32,538 bases of DNA from contig JAAFJU010000045.1 in the NCBI GenBank assembly GCA_013298165.1, forward strand, positions 1-32,538, given 5' to 3'. The stretch comes from Synechococcales cyanobacterium bin31.maxbin.ball.101 (GTDB taxonomy: Bacteria > Cyanobacteriota > Cyanobacteriia > Leptolyngbyales > Leptolyngbyaceae). The position numbers and the translations under genes were made by a program. Shown in pieces: positions 779 to 30,398 of the stretch. The stretch's first letter is position 1, and each line of letters begins with the position of its first letter. Under the pieces are notes generated by a model, which was given only the letters and a program-made list of their open reading frames with translations, did no database searches and had not been told where the DNA came from.

Positions 779-851
779 CCCAATTCAATCTAATTCCTGA
801 TTTTGGAATCTTAGGCAGACTAGCAAATTTCTTTATCTTGAAATATATTGA
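779..851. repeat. Dispersed 73-bp element, copy A
   Basis: This segment matches 4307-4380 at roughly 80 percent by eye. Both share the core TTTTGGAATCTTAGGCAGAC followed by TAGCAAA. In both places it lies 3' of a block of ~20-bp tandem units, so the two loci are copies of one compound element. The inner motif CTTAGGCAGAC (810-820) also occurs inverted at 898-908 in this copy only. It is not recognisable as a known insertion sequence end. Confidence 0.75.
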
Positions 852-996
852 GATTATCGGTATGAGGTTCAAATTTAGGGACTTAAACGGACAATTTGTC
901 TGCCTAAGGTCCTAAAAGTCGGATTTATGAAGACAGTCGGTATTCAGTCTAAGATCCCGATCGGGGTACTGCAGACAACTATCCATCCATATAATT

Positions 997-1003
997 GTTA
1001 GGC
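997..1003 (+). other. Lone integron core site (GTTAGGC), cassette 1 left boundary
   Basis: GTTAGGC fits the integron core-site consensus GTTRRRY. It is followed by a gene (1097-1507) and then a well-formed attC (1514-1599), as expected for the left boundary of a cassette. The 100 bases before it contain no RYYYAAC partner with complementary arms. It therefore resembles an attI-type simple site or the scar of an old insertion rather than an attC. Seven bases are weak evidence alone; the context carries the call. Confidence 0.4.
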
Positions 1004-1096
1004 ATCTTGATTGAACTATTGAGTTCATGTTTCCACATTAAGCATTATGGGAATTATTAGCGAAGAAAGAGTACGTATCAAGCTGGCTGGTTAATT

Positions 1097-1507
1097 ATGG
1101 GATTTTCAACGATTTATCTTCGGTCATTCAAGTTCGATAAGCCGCTCACCTCAGAACATGCAAATACTTTGATTGAGTTTAATGAAACTGAGCATGAAGA
1201 TGAAGTGGGAAAGCCTGGTGGTGGTGGCAAGCCCCCAACATACTACTGTCAGTGGATCCCGACGGAAGATCTAGGTGGATTAGAGTGGGATAAAGCTGAG
1301 AAGTTTTACTACGGTAAGGAGTGGTTAGTCTATTTGATTGAGCAGTTCATCAAGCCGTGGGGTTATACATTGAATGGTGAAAGTCCGTGGTATGTAGACG
1401 ATTTCCAGGAAGCCGGAATACTCAAAGTCGTTGATAATGTTGTGATTGAAGAGTCCCGCGACATATCAGCTATTAAGAGCGAGTATGGTGAATTTGAGCC
1501 AGATTAA
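1097..1507 (+). CDS. Conserved hypothetical protein, integron cassette cargo
   Basis: A 136-residue acidic protein of unknown function. It contains 'YYCQWIPTEDLGGLEWDKAEKFYYGKEW' (written here in overlapping parts: YYCQWIPTED, GLEWDKAEKF, YYGKEWLVYL) and 'FIKPWGYTLNGE'. This pattern recalls a family of small uncharacterised proteins seen in phages and diverse bacteria, which ends in a short beta segment 'ILKVVDNVVIEE'. There is no signal peptide or membrane segment. No strong ribosome site precedes the ATG. The stop codon lies 7 bases before the attC R'' box at 1514, the usual arrangement for an integron cassette gene. It is more AT-rich than the housekeeping genes, consistent with acquisition. 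Confidence 0.75.
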   Translation: MGFSTIYLRSFKFDKPLTSEHANTLIEFNETEHEDEVGKPGGGGKPPTYYCQWIPTEDLGGLEWDKAEKFYYGKEWLVYLIEQFIKPWGYTLNGESPWYVDDFQEAGILKVVDNVVIEESRDISAIKSEYGEFEPD

Positions 1508-1513
1508 TGCGAT

Positions 1514-1599
1514 ACCTAACAATCTTGATGGAGCGGGCTATCTGAGCTAGACTATTATTATAGTAAGGTGGTTCAAGCCGCTCATCAAGAACGTTAGAC
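1514..1599 (+). other. attC recombination site (59-base element), complete
   Basis: R'' box ACCTAAC at 1514-1520 fits RYYYAAC, and R' box GTTAGAC at 1593-1599 fits GTTRRRY. Between them the arms pair. TCTTGATG (1523-1530) is complementary to CATCAAGA (1583-1590), and AGCGG (1532-1536) to CCGCT (1578-1582). G1531 is left unpaired in one arm only. A single extrahelical base in one arm is a hallmark of attC folding and of strand choice by IntI. The loop (1537-1577) is variable and includes a small ACTAT/ATAGT hairpin. The total of 86 bases lies within the usual attC range. It sits 7 bases after a stop codon. Confidence 0.8.
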
Positions 1600-1693
1600 C
1601 GATTTCATTAATTGGCGACAGTACTACGCAACAGCATCTTAGGTTTTCTTAACAACCATAGCGGACTGCTGTATTGATGTGATAATTTGAGTT

Positions 1694-2308
1694 ATGAATT
1701 TTTCTACACCTACAAGCCGCCTTCAACTCATTCTTACAGCACCTGATCCATCTCTATTTGCGGCCTTTCAAGAACAGTTTTCTCGGTTTTCAGATGTTTC
1801 AATTATCGGTGAATGCTTCGAGTGGATTCCGACTTTTGACTGCTTAGTCAGTCCGGCTAACTCATTCGGGATGATGGATGGTGGGATAGATGCCGCGATT
1901 ACTCGATTTTTTGGGCTTTCTTTGGAGTGTAGGGTACAAAGGCGCATCATTGAAGACTATCTAGGTGAGCAGCCTGTCGGCACATCTTTCATCATCGAAA
2001 CCAAACACCCGAAGCATCCTTTCCTTGCCCATACTCCAACAATGCGAGTTCCAATATCAATTAAAGGAACAGATGTTCCCTATACAGCGATGTGGGCAAT
2101 GCTTCTGGCAATTCGGCAGCACAACAAAACGAATCAACGGAAGATTGGAAGCGTAGTCTGCCCTGGGCTAGGTACGGGTATCGGTCAAGTTCCTTATTCT
2201 GAAGCTGCTCGGCAGATGGCGATCGCTTACGACCACTATCTATATCCACCTAAAATGATTAACACTTTTGTTGCTGCATCCAGGCAACTTCAAATTTGGG
2301 AGGGGTAA
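1694..2308 (+). CDS. Macro-domain protein
   Basis: A 204-residue single-domain protein. Macro domains bind ADP-ribose and related nucleotides, and some remove ADP-ribose from macromolecules. The signatures visible are the ligand loop 'SPANSFGMMDGGIDAAI' (about 53-69) and the glycine-rich phosphate loop 'CPGLGTGIGQVP' (156-167). A 'MRVP' strand followed by the helix 'YTAMWAMLLAIRQHN' lies between them. The protein is a soluble cytoplasmic type. It begins 95 bases after the attC R' box, and the hydrolase gene follows after 12 bases, so the two probably form one transcription unit within one cassette. A weak TGAG precedes the ATG. The substrate and exact activity (binding versus hydrolysis) cannot be told from sequence. 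Confidence 0.88.
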   Translation: MNFSTPTSRLQLILTAPDPSLFAAFQEQFSRFSDVSIIGECFEWIPTFDCLVSPANSFGMMDGGIDAAITRFFGLSLECRVQRRIIEDYLGEQPVGTSFIIETKHPKHPFLAHTPTMRVPISIKGTDVPYTAMWAMLLAIRQHNKTNQRKIGSVVCPGLGTGIGQVPYSEAARQMAIAYDHYLYPPKMINTFVAASRQLQIWEG

Positions 2309-2320
2309 AATCAAATACAA

Positions 2321-2941
2321 ATGCTTGTACTCTTTGTTCACGGAATGGGCCGTTCACCGCTGTCTGGCTGGCCAATGCTGCGTCGGCTCAGGCGCGCTGG
2401 ATTCTCAACTACAGTTTTTGGCTATTTGGCCGCACTGGAATCCTTCGCATCTATTGTTCACAGACTGCGCGATCGTATTCAACAAATCGCCCATGCAGGT
2501 CCATATATTGTTGTGGGCCATTCGCTCGGCGGGGTCTTACTCCGTGCAGCAATAGGCGAACTGCCGAGTTCCATTATGCCTAGCCACATATACCTGCTTG
2601 GATCACCAATAACGACCTCGCGTTTAGCAATCAAGCTACGAGCGAATCCTGTCTTTAAAGCTTTTGCCGGAGATTGCGGGCAATTACTCGCATCGGAGGA
2701 ACGAATGAAAAGAGTGGCTTCAGTAAACGGGCCAGTAACGGCAATTGTCGGCGTCCGAGGTTTTACTGGCGCAAACAGTCCGTTTGGCTTCGAGGCCAAT
2801 GATGGCGTAGTCGCTGTCTCTGAGGCGAGCGCGGAATGGCTAACGAGCAAAGTGGAACTACCTGTGATGCACACATTTTTGCCCGCTAGTTCATCGGTTG
2901 CTAACATCATCATCAACACGTATGCAGCGGATGCGGGCTAA
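2321..2941 (+). CDS. Alpha/beta hydrolase (esterase/lipase-like)
   Basis: A 206-residue hydrolase with an early HGMG oxyanion motif (7-10) and the nucleophile elbow GHSLGG with Ser68. A probable acid Asp161 lies in 'ANDGVVAVSEA', and a probable catalytic His184 in 'PVMHTF'. The order and spacing form a full Ser-Asp-His triad, so the enzyme should be active on an ester or amide bond; the substrate is unknown. There is no signal peptide and no lid insertion, and the size suits small lipase/PGAP1-like esterases. GGGAGGGG at 2297-2304 may serve as a ribosome site, although about 16 bases upstream. The stop codon TAA is part of the following attC R''-like box, a typical cassette arrangement. Confidence 0.85.
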   Translation: MLVLFVHGMGRSPLSGWPMLRRLRRAGFSTTVFGYLAALESFASIVHRLRDRIQQIAHAGPYIVVGHSLGGVLLRAAIGELPSSIMPSHIYLLGSPITTSRLAIKLRANPVFKAFAGDCGQLLASEERMKRVASVNGPVTAIVGVRGFTGANSPFGFEANDGVVAVSEASAEWLTSKVELPVMHTFLPASSSVANIIINTYAADAG

Positions 2942-2964
2942 CCCTTCGTTCGAGCCGACCCACC
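2936..2964 (+). other. Truncated attC site (5' half only)
   Basis: GGCTAAC (2936-2942, one base off RYYYAAC) followed by CCTTCGTTCGAGCCGAC closely resembles the left half of common attC sites such as that of aadA cassettes (TCTAACAATTCGTTCAAGCC from memory). It overlaps the hydrolase stop. The expected complementary right half and GTTRRRY box are missing; instead a DUF4291 relic begins at 2967. The break is seen directly; the attC identity is inferred from resemblance and position. Confidence 0.6.
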
Positions 2965-3060: not shown

Positions 3061-3336
3061 TCACTTCAAGGTATCGGACGATCGCTCACCAAGCCAAGTT
3101 GTTAAATCAGACAATTGCTCAAAATCGAGTAGTGCTTCACCTAACTCATCCAACTGGAGGACAGATAACTGCTCAACTTGCGATCGAAGTTCCGCAGGTA
3201 AAATACCAATTCGTCGCGCTAATAGACGGATGACGAGCGATCGCGCCTGATCTCGTTGTCCGATCGCAATTCCCCTAGCCTGTCCTCTGGCTTCCGTTGC
3301 TGCTTCCCAGTCCAGAAATGATTGCGAGAATGCCAT
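3061..3336 (-). CDS. DUF4351-domain fragment (Rpn/PD-(D/E)XK family tail)
   Basis: A 91-residue product beginning MAFSQSFLDWEAATEARGQARG and containing 'ARSLVIRLLARRIG', 'LRSQVEQLSVLQLDELGEALLDF' (in parts: LSVLQLDELG, EALLDFEQL) and 'LTTWL'. This is the DUF4351 domain, normally found at the C-terminus of 250-300-residue Rpn/transposase-like PD-(D/E)XK proteins of cyanobacteria. The nuclease domain is absent here, so this is either a remnant with a fortuitous start or a free-standing small protein. It sits among other relics, which favours remnant. The AT-rich repeat pair at 3409-3430 lies just upstream. Confidence 0.7.
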   Translation of the reverse strand: MAFSQSFLDWEAATEARGQARGIAIGQRDQARSLVIRLLARRIGILPAELRSQVEQLSVLQLDELGEALLDFEQLSDLTTWLGERSSDTLK

Positions 3337-4014: not shown

Positions 4015-4202
4015 GATCGGGGATTTTTTAATTGAGTTGGGGATTTTTTTAACTCGATCGGGGTTTCCGTAACTCGATCGGGGAATTTTTAATTGAGTTG
4101 GGGATTTTTTAACTCAATCGGGGTTCCCGTAATTCGATCGGAGATTTTTTAATCGAGTTGGAGTTTCAGAAACTTGATTAGGGATTTAGTTACTCGATTG
4201 TT
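4015..4202. repeat. Degenerate ~20-bp tandem units, copy B (about nine units)
   Basis: About nine consecutive 19-21-base units such as GATCGGGGATTTTTTAATT, GAGTTGGGGATTTTTTAACTC and GATCGGGGTTTCCGTAACTC, decaying toward the 3' end. The first three units repeat the order seen in copy A at 691. The spacing of about two helical turns is notable. There are no spacers of CRISPR type. Confidence 0.85.
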
Positions 4203-4306
4203 TGGAAGGGCGATCGGCTAATAAATAATTGTGGGAGTCCAGAGGAATCGCAGGGTAGCGTGTGGTCGATCGAGGAACTTTCAAGATGGCGGATCCATAT
4301 TTGTCT

Positions 4307-4380
4307 CCCAATCAATTTAATTCCTGGTTTTGGAATCTTAGGCAGACTAGCAAAATTCTTTGTCCTGGAATATACTAAGT
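4307..4380. repeat. Dispersed ~74-bp element, copy B
   Basis: Matches 779-851, sharing TTTTGGAATCTTAGGCAGAC and TAGCAAA, and similarity fades into AT-rich sequence by about 4400. It ends about 50 bases before the ATPase-DUF4435 start. The antisense frame over both copies gives the similar peptide 'FASLPKIPK.GI', but this only reflects the shared DNA and is not evidence for a gene. Confidence 0.75.
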
Positions 4381-4432
4381 TTATTGATTTAAGATTCAAA
4401 TCTTGATTCTAAATTTTTAGGGTTGTGTACGA

Positions 4433-6754: not shown

Positions 6755-7132
6755 TCACGATCGATCGGGCAACAGTGGTAATCGGCGAATCCGAATTCGG
6801 GTTGGTTCAACAGTTACTGCCGCCCCTTGTTCCAGATCTTCTTCGCATTGACTCAACACCATCAACAATAGATCTACAACCGCCCGTGCGCGCAGGCGTT
6901 GAATTCGAATCCGAATCACAGAAGGCATTAGTGCCGTACCGATCGCTAAAAGCGTATGGAAATCGGCGTCCATCGTCGCCACGACTCGCTTTTCTTCTTG
7001 AGCTTTTCTAAGAATCTCGGAATCTTCAGCCGCCGCCATTCCAAGTTCTTCAACGTGAATTGTATCTACACCGACTTCACGTAAGAGCGCTGCGGCAGAC
7101 AGCGGCAGTCCCTGATCAAGCAACAGTTTCAT
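6755..7132 (-). CDS. DUF5615 PIN-like toxin candidate
   Basis: A 125-residue protein starting MKLLLDQGLPLSAAALLREVG. DUF5615 belongs to the PIN-like nuclease superfamily (VapC relatives). Asp6 in 'LLDQGL', the acidic pair in 'AAAEDSEIL' and 'MDADF' (Asp55, Asp57) supply the expected metal-binding acids. Its start overlaps the end of the DUF433 gene by 17 bases on the same strand, the classic arrangement of the DUF433/DUF5615 toxin-antitoxin-like pair. The C-terminal 25 residues are Arg-rich. RNase activity is inferred from the fold only. Confidence 0.85.
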   Translation of the reverse strand: MKLLLDQGLPLSAAALLREVGVDTIHVEELGMAAAEDSEILRKAQEEKRVVATMDADFHTLLAIGTALMPSVIRIRIQRLRARAVVDLLLMVLSQCEEDLEQGAAVTVEPTRIRIRRLPLLPDRS

Positions 7133-7358
7133 ACGTTATAGGAAGATCAATGATTCGATCGGCAAGTTGTGTGGAGGCATATAGCAATGATTGCTGGATA
7201 TCCTCTTCTTCTAAAGCGGGAAATTCGGCATATAATTCCGATCGATCGGGATAGATCGCCACCAACTCAATCACACGCCTCACCGTCAGCCTCAGATTTC
7301 GGATGCAAGGTTGCCCATTCATCTGAGCGGGGTTTGTAGTGATGCGATCGAGTTTCAT
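7116..7358 (-). CDS. DUF433 antitoxin candidate
   Basis: An 80-residue protein, MKLDRITTNPAQMNGQPCIRNLRLTV..., with the DUF433 core (normally 'P....G.P.I.GTRI.V') followed by a helix-turn-helix-like region 'RVIELVAIYPD' and 'EFPALEEEDIQQSLLYAS'. DUF433 proteins are the predicted DNA-binding antitoxin partners of DUF5615. It is first in the operon, and the toxin candidate follows with a 17-base overlap, which permits translational coupling. The 'GTRI' signature is altered to 'RNLRL', a common variation. The 270 bases beyond its start lead to alaS in the other direction. Confidence 0.85.
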   Translation of the reverse strand: MKLDRITTNPAQMNGQPCIRNLRLTVRRVIELVAIYPDRSELYAEFPALEEEDIQQSLLYASTQLADRIIDLPITYETVA

Positions 7359-10262: not shown

Positions 10263-10278
10263 ACATCGGGAATTGAAA

Positions 10279-10524
10279 ATGACTAAGTTGCAAAAACTCA
10301 TTAATCAATTTCTTGCAGATCCGACCGAAGCACGTTTTGACGAGGTACGATCGCTGTTAGAGGCGTTCGGCTATGAGGAGAAACGCTCCAAAGGGAGTCA
10401 TCACGTCTTTGAAAACGAAACTGGTTCCGTGATTACGGTTCCAAAGAAAGGTGGACAACGGGTGAAGCGGATTTATCTTAAACGCCTTGTTGTCTTACTC
10501 GATCTGGCAAATTGGAAGGAGTAA
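10279..10524 (+). CDS. hicA: HicA-family toxin
   Basis: An 81-residue protein with the small dsRBD-like fold of HicA mRNA interferases. The core is 'FDEVRSLLEAFGY', then 'KRSKGSHHVF' with the catalytic-type His41, then 'ITVPKK' and a Lys/Arg-rich tail. An in-frame TTG lies two codons upstream (10273), but the ATG at 10279 fits better. The partner HicB gene starts 3 bases after this stop. HicA normally cleaves mRNA ribosome-independently when HicB is lost. It begins 16 bases after alaS on the same strand, so some read-through from alaS is likely. Confidence 0.88.
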   Translation: MTKLQKLINQFLADPTEARFDEVRSLLEAFGYEEKRSKGSHHVFENETGSVITVPKKGGQRVKRIYLKRLVVLLDLANWKE

Positions 10525-10527
10525 ACC

Positions 10528-10785
10528 ATGACTATCTCGACCGAAAACCGGATTCAATCGCTGTCAACGTTAGAAGATTATCTAAAATTAAGTTATCCCA
10601 TTACGCTTTATCCTGATGATGAGTGCGGTGGCTACGTGGTTGAAATCCTTGATTTGCCAGGTTGCTTATCAGAAGGTGAAACTCTAGAAGAAGCAGTTGC
10701 CAACATCAACGAAGCACGGGAGCTTTGGCTTGAGGTCGCTTACGAGTCCGGTCGATCGATTCCGTTACCGAGTCTCGATCGGTAG
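10528..10785 (+). CDS. hicB: HicB-family antitoxin
   Basis: An 85-residue protein with the HicB partial RNase H-like fold: 'YPITLYPDDECGGYVVEILDLPGC' (in parts: YPITLYPDDE, GGYVVEILDLPGC), 'SEGETLEEAVANINEARELWLE' (in parts: GETLEEAVAN, INEARELWLE) and 'GRSIPLP'. It lacks a C-terminal DNA-binding domain, so it is the short type that neutralises the toxin but may regulate poorly. GGAG lies just before its ATG, at the hicA stop. It is part of a toxin-antitoxin pair directly upstream of the ATPase/PIN module, 29 bases away. Confidence 0.9.
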   Translation: MTISTENRIQSLSTLEDYLKLSYPITLYPDDECGGYVVEILDLPGCLSEGETLEEAVANINEARELWLEVAYESGRSIPLPSLDR

Positions 10786-29705: not shown

Positions 29706-29795
29706 GTCATCTTTGTCGGGTGATAGTCCGGTCAGATGGGTAGCCGATCAATGCCATATAATAAGAATGCGCTCTCATCGATCGGAGTCATCCCT

Positions 29796-30023
29796 ATGGA
29801 AATTGCCCCTCACATTAATGTTGATCCTGCCATCTGTGGTGGGACTCCGGTTATTACAGGCACTCGAATTCCGGTTTCGATCGTGATTGGTGCGCTTGCT
29901 AGTGACATGACGGAAGAGGAAGTGATGTATGAGTACGTTCTGAATCAAGTCCAAATCAAAGCGTCATTGGCTTATGCTGCCAGTCTTGTCAGCCATGTAG
30001 AAGTTTTTCCGATCGGAGCGTAG
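29796..30023 (+). CDS. DUF433 antitoxin candidate (second pair)
   Basis: 75 residues from the ATG at 29796, MEIAPHINVDPAICGGTPVITG..., with GGAG 9-12 bases upstream. It has the textbook DUF433 signature 'CGGTPVITGTRIPVSIVIG', then 'MTEEEVMYEYVLNQVQIKASLAYAA' (in parts). A frame open to 29736 adds 20 unconserved residues and is not used. The DUF5615 gene follows after 6 bases. It is a predicted antitoxin or regulator for that PIN-like partner. Confidence 0.9.
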   Translation: MEIAPHINVDPAICGGTPVITGTRIPVSIVIGALASDMTEEEVMYEYVLNQVQIKASLAYAASLVSHVEVFPIGA

Positions 30024-30029
30024 TGCTGC

Positions 30030-30398
30030 GTGAAGTTTCTGATTGATGAAAATATGCCCCGATCGCTAGCTGGGAAAATCGCCGAATTGGGATTTGAGGT
30101 GCATGATGTTCGAGATATTGGACTGGCAAGTCATCCAGACGAAGAGGTCATGCAGGCTGCGATCGAGCTAGATGCGATTATCATTACGGGCGATCGACGG
30201 TTTGCTGATCCGCGTAGTTGGTCCGACGAATTTAATTCAGGCGTCATTTTTATCACGCTACCTGAGGGGACTTCTGCAAAAGTCTTGATCTCAAAAATCA
30301 TCGACCTGATTAAAGACCGCCATCCTGATTCACTGTTGGGTGCTTATACCGTGGTTGAACTAAGGCGCGCACTGTCTCGCCCAGTGCGATCGCGTTAA
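30030..30398 (+). CDS. DUF5615 PIN-like toxin candidate (second pair)
   Basis: 122 residues from a GTG start at 30030, with GGAG (30015-30018) upstream. 'MKFLIDENMPRSLAGKIAELGFEVHDVRDIGLASHPDEEVMQ' (in parts: KFLIDENMPR, HDVRDIGLAS) and 'AIIITGDRRFADP' carry the PIN-like acids Asp6, Asp38 and the Asp of TGDRRF. It is more canonical than the copy at 6755. The gene ends 'LRRALSRPVRSR'. Its role as an RNase toxin is inferred from fold and pairing. Confidence 0.9.
   Translation: MKFLIDENMPRSLAGKIAELGFEVHDVRDIGLASHPDEEVMQAAIELDAIIITGDRRFADPRSWSDEFNSGVIFITLPEGTSAKVLISKIIDLIKDRHPDSLLGAYTVVELRRALSRPVRSR

Follow-up and report, generated by a model that had tools for sequence, protein, structure and literature searches.

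The window, meaning the whole 32,538-nucleotide stretch analysed here (contig JAAFJU010000045.1 of a Synechococcales cyanobacterium, assembly GCA_013298165.1), belongs to a draft genome of 356 contigs with 96% completeness and 0.2% contamination. Near its start it contained an attI-like element, an attC site, two gene cassettes and the 5' half of a second attC, as follows:

783-1003, plus strand: attI-like docking element of ~220 bp with quasi-palindromic half-sites (TTAGGCAGA / TCTGCCTAA type) and no adjoining intI, defined by recurring copies, the R2 model and half-site counts
991-1003, plus strand: attI core ATAATTG/TTAGGC (crossover at the slash), from the alignment of copies, with the probable crossover between G997 and T998
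998-1593, plus strand: cassette 1, 596 bp, as delimited by two putative GTT crossovers (attI and attC)
1097-1507, plus strand: open reading frame (ORF) of cassette 1, 136 aa, no assigned function, related to proteins of phages (phrog_38666) and of Bacillus/Enterococcus plasmids
1514-1599, plus strand: attC of cassette 1, with R'' at 1514-1520, R' at 1593-1599 and extrahelical G1530/1531 and G1537
1594-2962, plus strand: cassette 2, 3' end lost, running from the R' crossover of the cassette 1 attC into the half attC
1694-2308, plus strand: cassette 2 ORF a, a Macro-domain protein (Pfam PF01661, E 7e-14; phrog_2613, E 2e-71)
2321-2941, plus strand: cassette 2 ORF b, an alpha/beta hydrolase (Pfam PF12697, E 5e-7)
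2936-2962, plus strand: 5' half of a second attC (R''-L'': GGCTAACCCTTCGTTCGAGCCGACCCA), with R'' at six of seven consensus positions and the 3' half missing
4308-4412, plus strand: second attI-like copy, 3'-truncated (R2 55.8 bits; 84% identity over 95 bp)

An earlier note on this DNA had picked out the attC, which stands; the attI-like element at 783-1003, cassette 2 and the half attC at 2936 were absent from its picture of the locus. The attC boxes, R'' ACCTAAC and R' GTTAGAC, read as described there, paired with one another and fitted RYYYAAC and GTTRRRY. Within the arms, C1524-T1529 paired with A1584-G1589, followed by six further pairs to G1536-C1578. Two bases were extrahelical, both on the 5' arm: the G at 1530/1531, which had been noticed as the only unpaired base, and G1537 (by alignment), which had been overlooked. 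According to published work, extrahelical attC bases determine which strand is used and shield the L box (PMC4792948). The site followed the stop codon of its ORF in the correct orientation, as had been observed, at a distance of six bases, not seven. Folding of 1514-1599 gave z-scores of -4.8 and -4.7 for the two strands with none of 200 shuffles as good, and the bottom-strand fold, which had been proposed as a check, was accordingly strong. The site was present once, with no identical copy found elsewhere in the genome and no resembling sequence found in plasmid DNA.

An independent covariance model (R1) was built from 18 aligned attC-like hairpins located near integron integrases in other genomes, with the window site excluded. 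Covariation in the R1 stem (52 double-change cells vs. 17.6 in shuffles) also exceeded that of slid controls. R1 matched 1514-1599 over its full length at 39.9 bits, with E values of 6.6e-8 for an 80.5-kb search space and 4.4e-6 for the whole genome; no further match was found in the window at E values up to 10. Genome-wide, 14 sites had E < 1e-3 and 16 had E < 0.05. Two small cyanobacterial genomes (G035 and G048), a weak control, gave no R1 matches. A strict R-box scanner detected the window site only and missed the five attCs of contig C305, and for this reason the covariance model was used instead. The R boxes, paired arms and R1 match agreed with the earlier description of a structurally complete attC, and at the level of sequence the site was confirmed as a real attC, beyond chance.

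On E. coli plasmids, homologues of ORF a (~53% identity) neighboured phage tail genes; a search of the three remaining genomes of the genus found none. The TAA stop of ORF b fell within the R'' box of the half attC at 2936-2962, for which no second arm was found in the window. The half-attC pattern occurred once in the genome (control, 0). In viral sequence it occurred on 14 contigs, all of which ran on into a matching second arm; seven of the 14 passed an automatic arm test, and the others deviated at the R' box or fell just below the strict test. The attC-like sites of these viral-classed contigs (IMG/VR, L261-L274) were short, ~52-58 bases, and nearly identical in sequence. Plasmid DNA gave a weak match (E 0.7) inside genes annotated as DUF1010, an annotation that often overlies cassette attCs.

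The left boundary of the array was examined by comparing the window with congeneric genomes (BLAST) and by alignment. Four genomes of the genus together held seven further copies of the 783-1003 element, some of them partial, and homology among the copies stopped at the crossover, GTTAGGC. Five copies had attC matches downstream, one of which was weak. A second model (R2), whose only input was six integrase-less copies, gave eleven matches no more than ~230 bp from intI, spread over eight genomes (G002, G005, G006, G008, G010, G011, G017 and G040); ten of these matches read away from intI, and several genera were represented. Because a model made from integrase-less copies matched DNA adjoining intI, the element was named attI-like. 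DNA upstream of intI at 27 named loci followed much the same plan, namely several quasi-palindromic half-sites followed by a core of the kind AATAGTTAGC or ATAGTTGGGC; the complete integron of the same genome had the core ATAATTGTTAGACC at C305:5361. The half-site TTAKRCRGA (one mismatch allowed), a motif picked after inspection of the sequences in which it was later counted, occurred six times in the window element vs. a mean of 0.23 and a maximum of 2 in 142 other window pieces, and upstream of intI it occurred 6.1 times per 390 bp. The element has two properties of an attI: it is conserved to the G/TT crossover with variable cassettes beyond, as seen in the copies and in an orthologous pair, and it is homologous to the stretch that separates intI from the first cassette, as seen in the R2 matches and the half-site density. 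The third, an adjoining intI, was lacking at 783-1003. The 780 bp of DNA that precede the element up to the contig end carry a minus-strand gene (82-615) in the position of intI. A consensus scan of the element found no sigma-70-type promoter.

A repetitive stretch (CGATCGGGGATTTTTTAATTGAGTTGGGG type) at 640-780 and 4017-4310 preceded both attI-like copies of the window, and the 4017-4310 repeat also matched C351:48784-49089 in the same genome, just upstream of the attI-like copy there; such repeats may be a route by which the element spread. A fused AriAB gene (PARIS-type anti-phage defence; 4433-6064; PADLOC, E 5.5e-140) began ~20 bp past the truncated copy at 4308-4412, and no attC was found behind it.

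No integrase gene was found anywhere in the window. This agrees with the earlier remark that none is encoded nearby; the genome search then suggested located one on contig C305 together with an attI and five attCs, so that intI, attI and cassettes, which do not occur together in the window, share one locus there. The C305 gene was a full-length, intact-looking open frame of 345 aa that scored 458 bits with TIGR02249 (NCBIfam) against a cut-off of 265. Its product has an integron-type insert (ALAKKYPNADRDWGWQFAFPS) and the motifs HTFRHSFATHLL and TTMIYTHV, which we take to be IntI features. The five attCs lay at C305:5937-8420 on the strand opposite intI, from ~650 bp past its start codon. In 58 cyanobacterial genomes, intI above the curated cut-off was found in 30 and R1 matches in 56, with two genomes having none. 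The attCs on which R1 was trained were largely cyanobacterial, and the figure of 56 therefore counts model matches and not proven sites; per-genome counts over ~70 are to be read as at least that number (77 candidates were scored). Cyanobacterial integrons (PMC2426708) and a Cyanobacteria-type attC model (PMC8352920) have already been published, and together with these counts they contradict the earlier statement that integron cassettes are uncommon in cyanobacteria. A contig labelled Candidatus Gracilibacteria (L050), possibly mis-binned, encoded an IntI 68% identical to the cyanobacterial one.

In the window's own genome, attI-like elements and attCs occurred together on contigs C10, C351, C194 and C272, none of which had an intI match. 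Across four congeneric genomes, 11 of 29 attI-like matches had an attC on the same strand no more than 3 kb downstream vs. 0.15 expected at random; the 29 are partly dependent, including one orthologous pair and some matches on a common contig. None of the 11 was on a contig with an intI match. The remaining 18, mostly weaker matches, had no attC nearby. One integrase-less attI was orthologous between genomes G001 and G002: the two loci were 84.5% identical for 1.6 kb and ceased to be homologous at the crossover; for G001 this comparison had only 133 bp downstream, and the G001 core read GTG, not GTT. Another integrase-less pair kept the same cassette and attC. The loci L206 (6726-7784) and L208 (2975-4033) held a cassette conserved in two species, with a reverse-oriented ParA-like gene between the attI-like element and the attC. 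A syntenic empty site was sought in congeners with 7.6 kb of window DNA, and only repeat families were found.

Taken together, the attC at 1514-1599 probably closes the first cassette of a two-cassette array docked at the attI-like element without an adjoining integrase, with the IntI of C305 likely acting in trans. The array would read attI, cassette 1 with its 136-aa ORF, attC, cassette 2 with the Macro-domain and hydrolase genes, and half attC. Most likely, the cassettes were put in place by an IntI that recombined attC, as a folded bottom strand, with attI at G/TT; the C305 enzyme was the probable catalyst, and the last cassette presumably lost its 3' end once it had been inserted. If the C305 IntI serves the integrase-less sites, the genome comprises a single complete integron with several attI platforms as satellites.

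Three other readings were considered. The array could be the relic of a decayed complete integron whose adjoining intI was deleted. Signs of decay at the locus are the incomplete attC at 2936 and the shortened attI copy at 4308, and G001 has attCs and attI-like elements yet lacks a strong intI match; however, several integrase-less elements occur per genome at unrelated loci, with no intI match on the same contigs, and two such loci are conserved between species. Decay is the less likely reading. Insertion of cassettes at a non-classical chromosomal attG, leaving an isolated attC (CALIN or SALIN) and no attI, is very improbable. Such insertion is described as established for cassettes outside integrons in PMC12901181 and PMC12444791 (citing Loot 2024), and the array is small and lies away from intI, but its left boundary is a 220-bp element homologous to intI-adjoining attI regions and not arbitrary DNA. 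An ordinary hairpin mimicking attC, such as a transcription terminator, would account for the strong fold but is scarcely credible given the full attC model match with extrahelical bases, the G/TT crossovers on both sides of the cassette, and the lack of any terminator-like site with a T-run in a scan of 700-1750 or of any Rfam family match in the window; neither a failing model score nor an ordinary terminator, which the earlier note had named as grounds for abandoning the attC, was encountered.

An array docked at an integrase-less attI, the preferred reading, matches the cyanobacterial chromosomal integron (intI, attI and cassettes) in its attC anatomy, in how the cassettes are laid out, and in the core and repeat architecture of attI, and differs from it in lacking intI and in having an attI-like element that exists in several scattered copies. 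The attC-bearing cassettes without an adjoining intI resemble CALIN and SALIN (PMC12444791, PMC12690207), but those classes are defined by attC alone, whereas the window array starts at an attI-like element. With one complete and one half attC, it has fewer than the two attCs without an integrase that define a CALIN and would be a SALIN by the single-site definition. Like attG insertions (Loot et al., 2024, cited in PMC12901181), the cassettes lie outside an integron, but their target is a conserved attI-like element and not a non-classical site.

The attC is of a known kind, while dispersed integrase-less attI platforms seem to be a new variation, judged against the literature consulted. A broader proposal, put forward tentatively, is that Cyanobacteria run distributed integrons in which the attI docking sites are many and dispersed across the chromosome, each with a few cassettes of its own, and are all served by a single IntI. 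The usual picture of integrons is one docking site beside one integrase. If attI sites are distributed, gene capture would extend past one array, a single integrase could place captured genes at many loci, and surveys based on attC alone would wrongly class such arrays as relics or as attG insertions. The locus and C305 supply a defined attI-attC-IntI set from one cyanobacterium.

Elsewhere in the window, the minus-strand genes at 82-615 and 3061-3336 were fragments of repeated gene families with several paralogues in the genome, the latter encoding a DUF4351 protein. The first 140-180 bases of the window recurred at 89-98% identity on five other contigs, in some cases at contig ends. Judging from translations only, small gene pairs at 6755-7358, 10273-10785 and 29736-30398 resembled toxin-antitoxin systems, the second of them being HicA/HicB-like.
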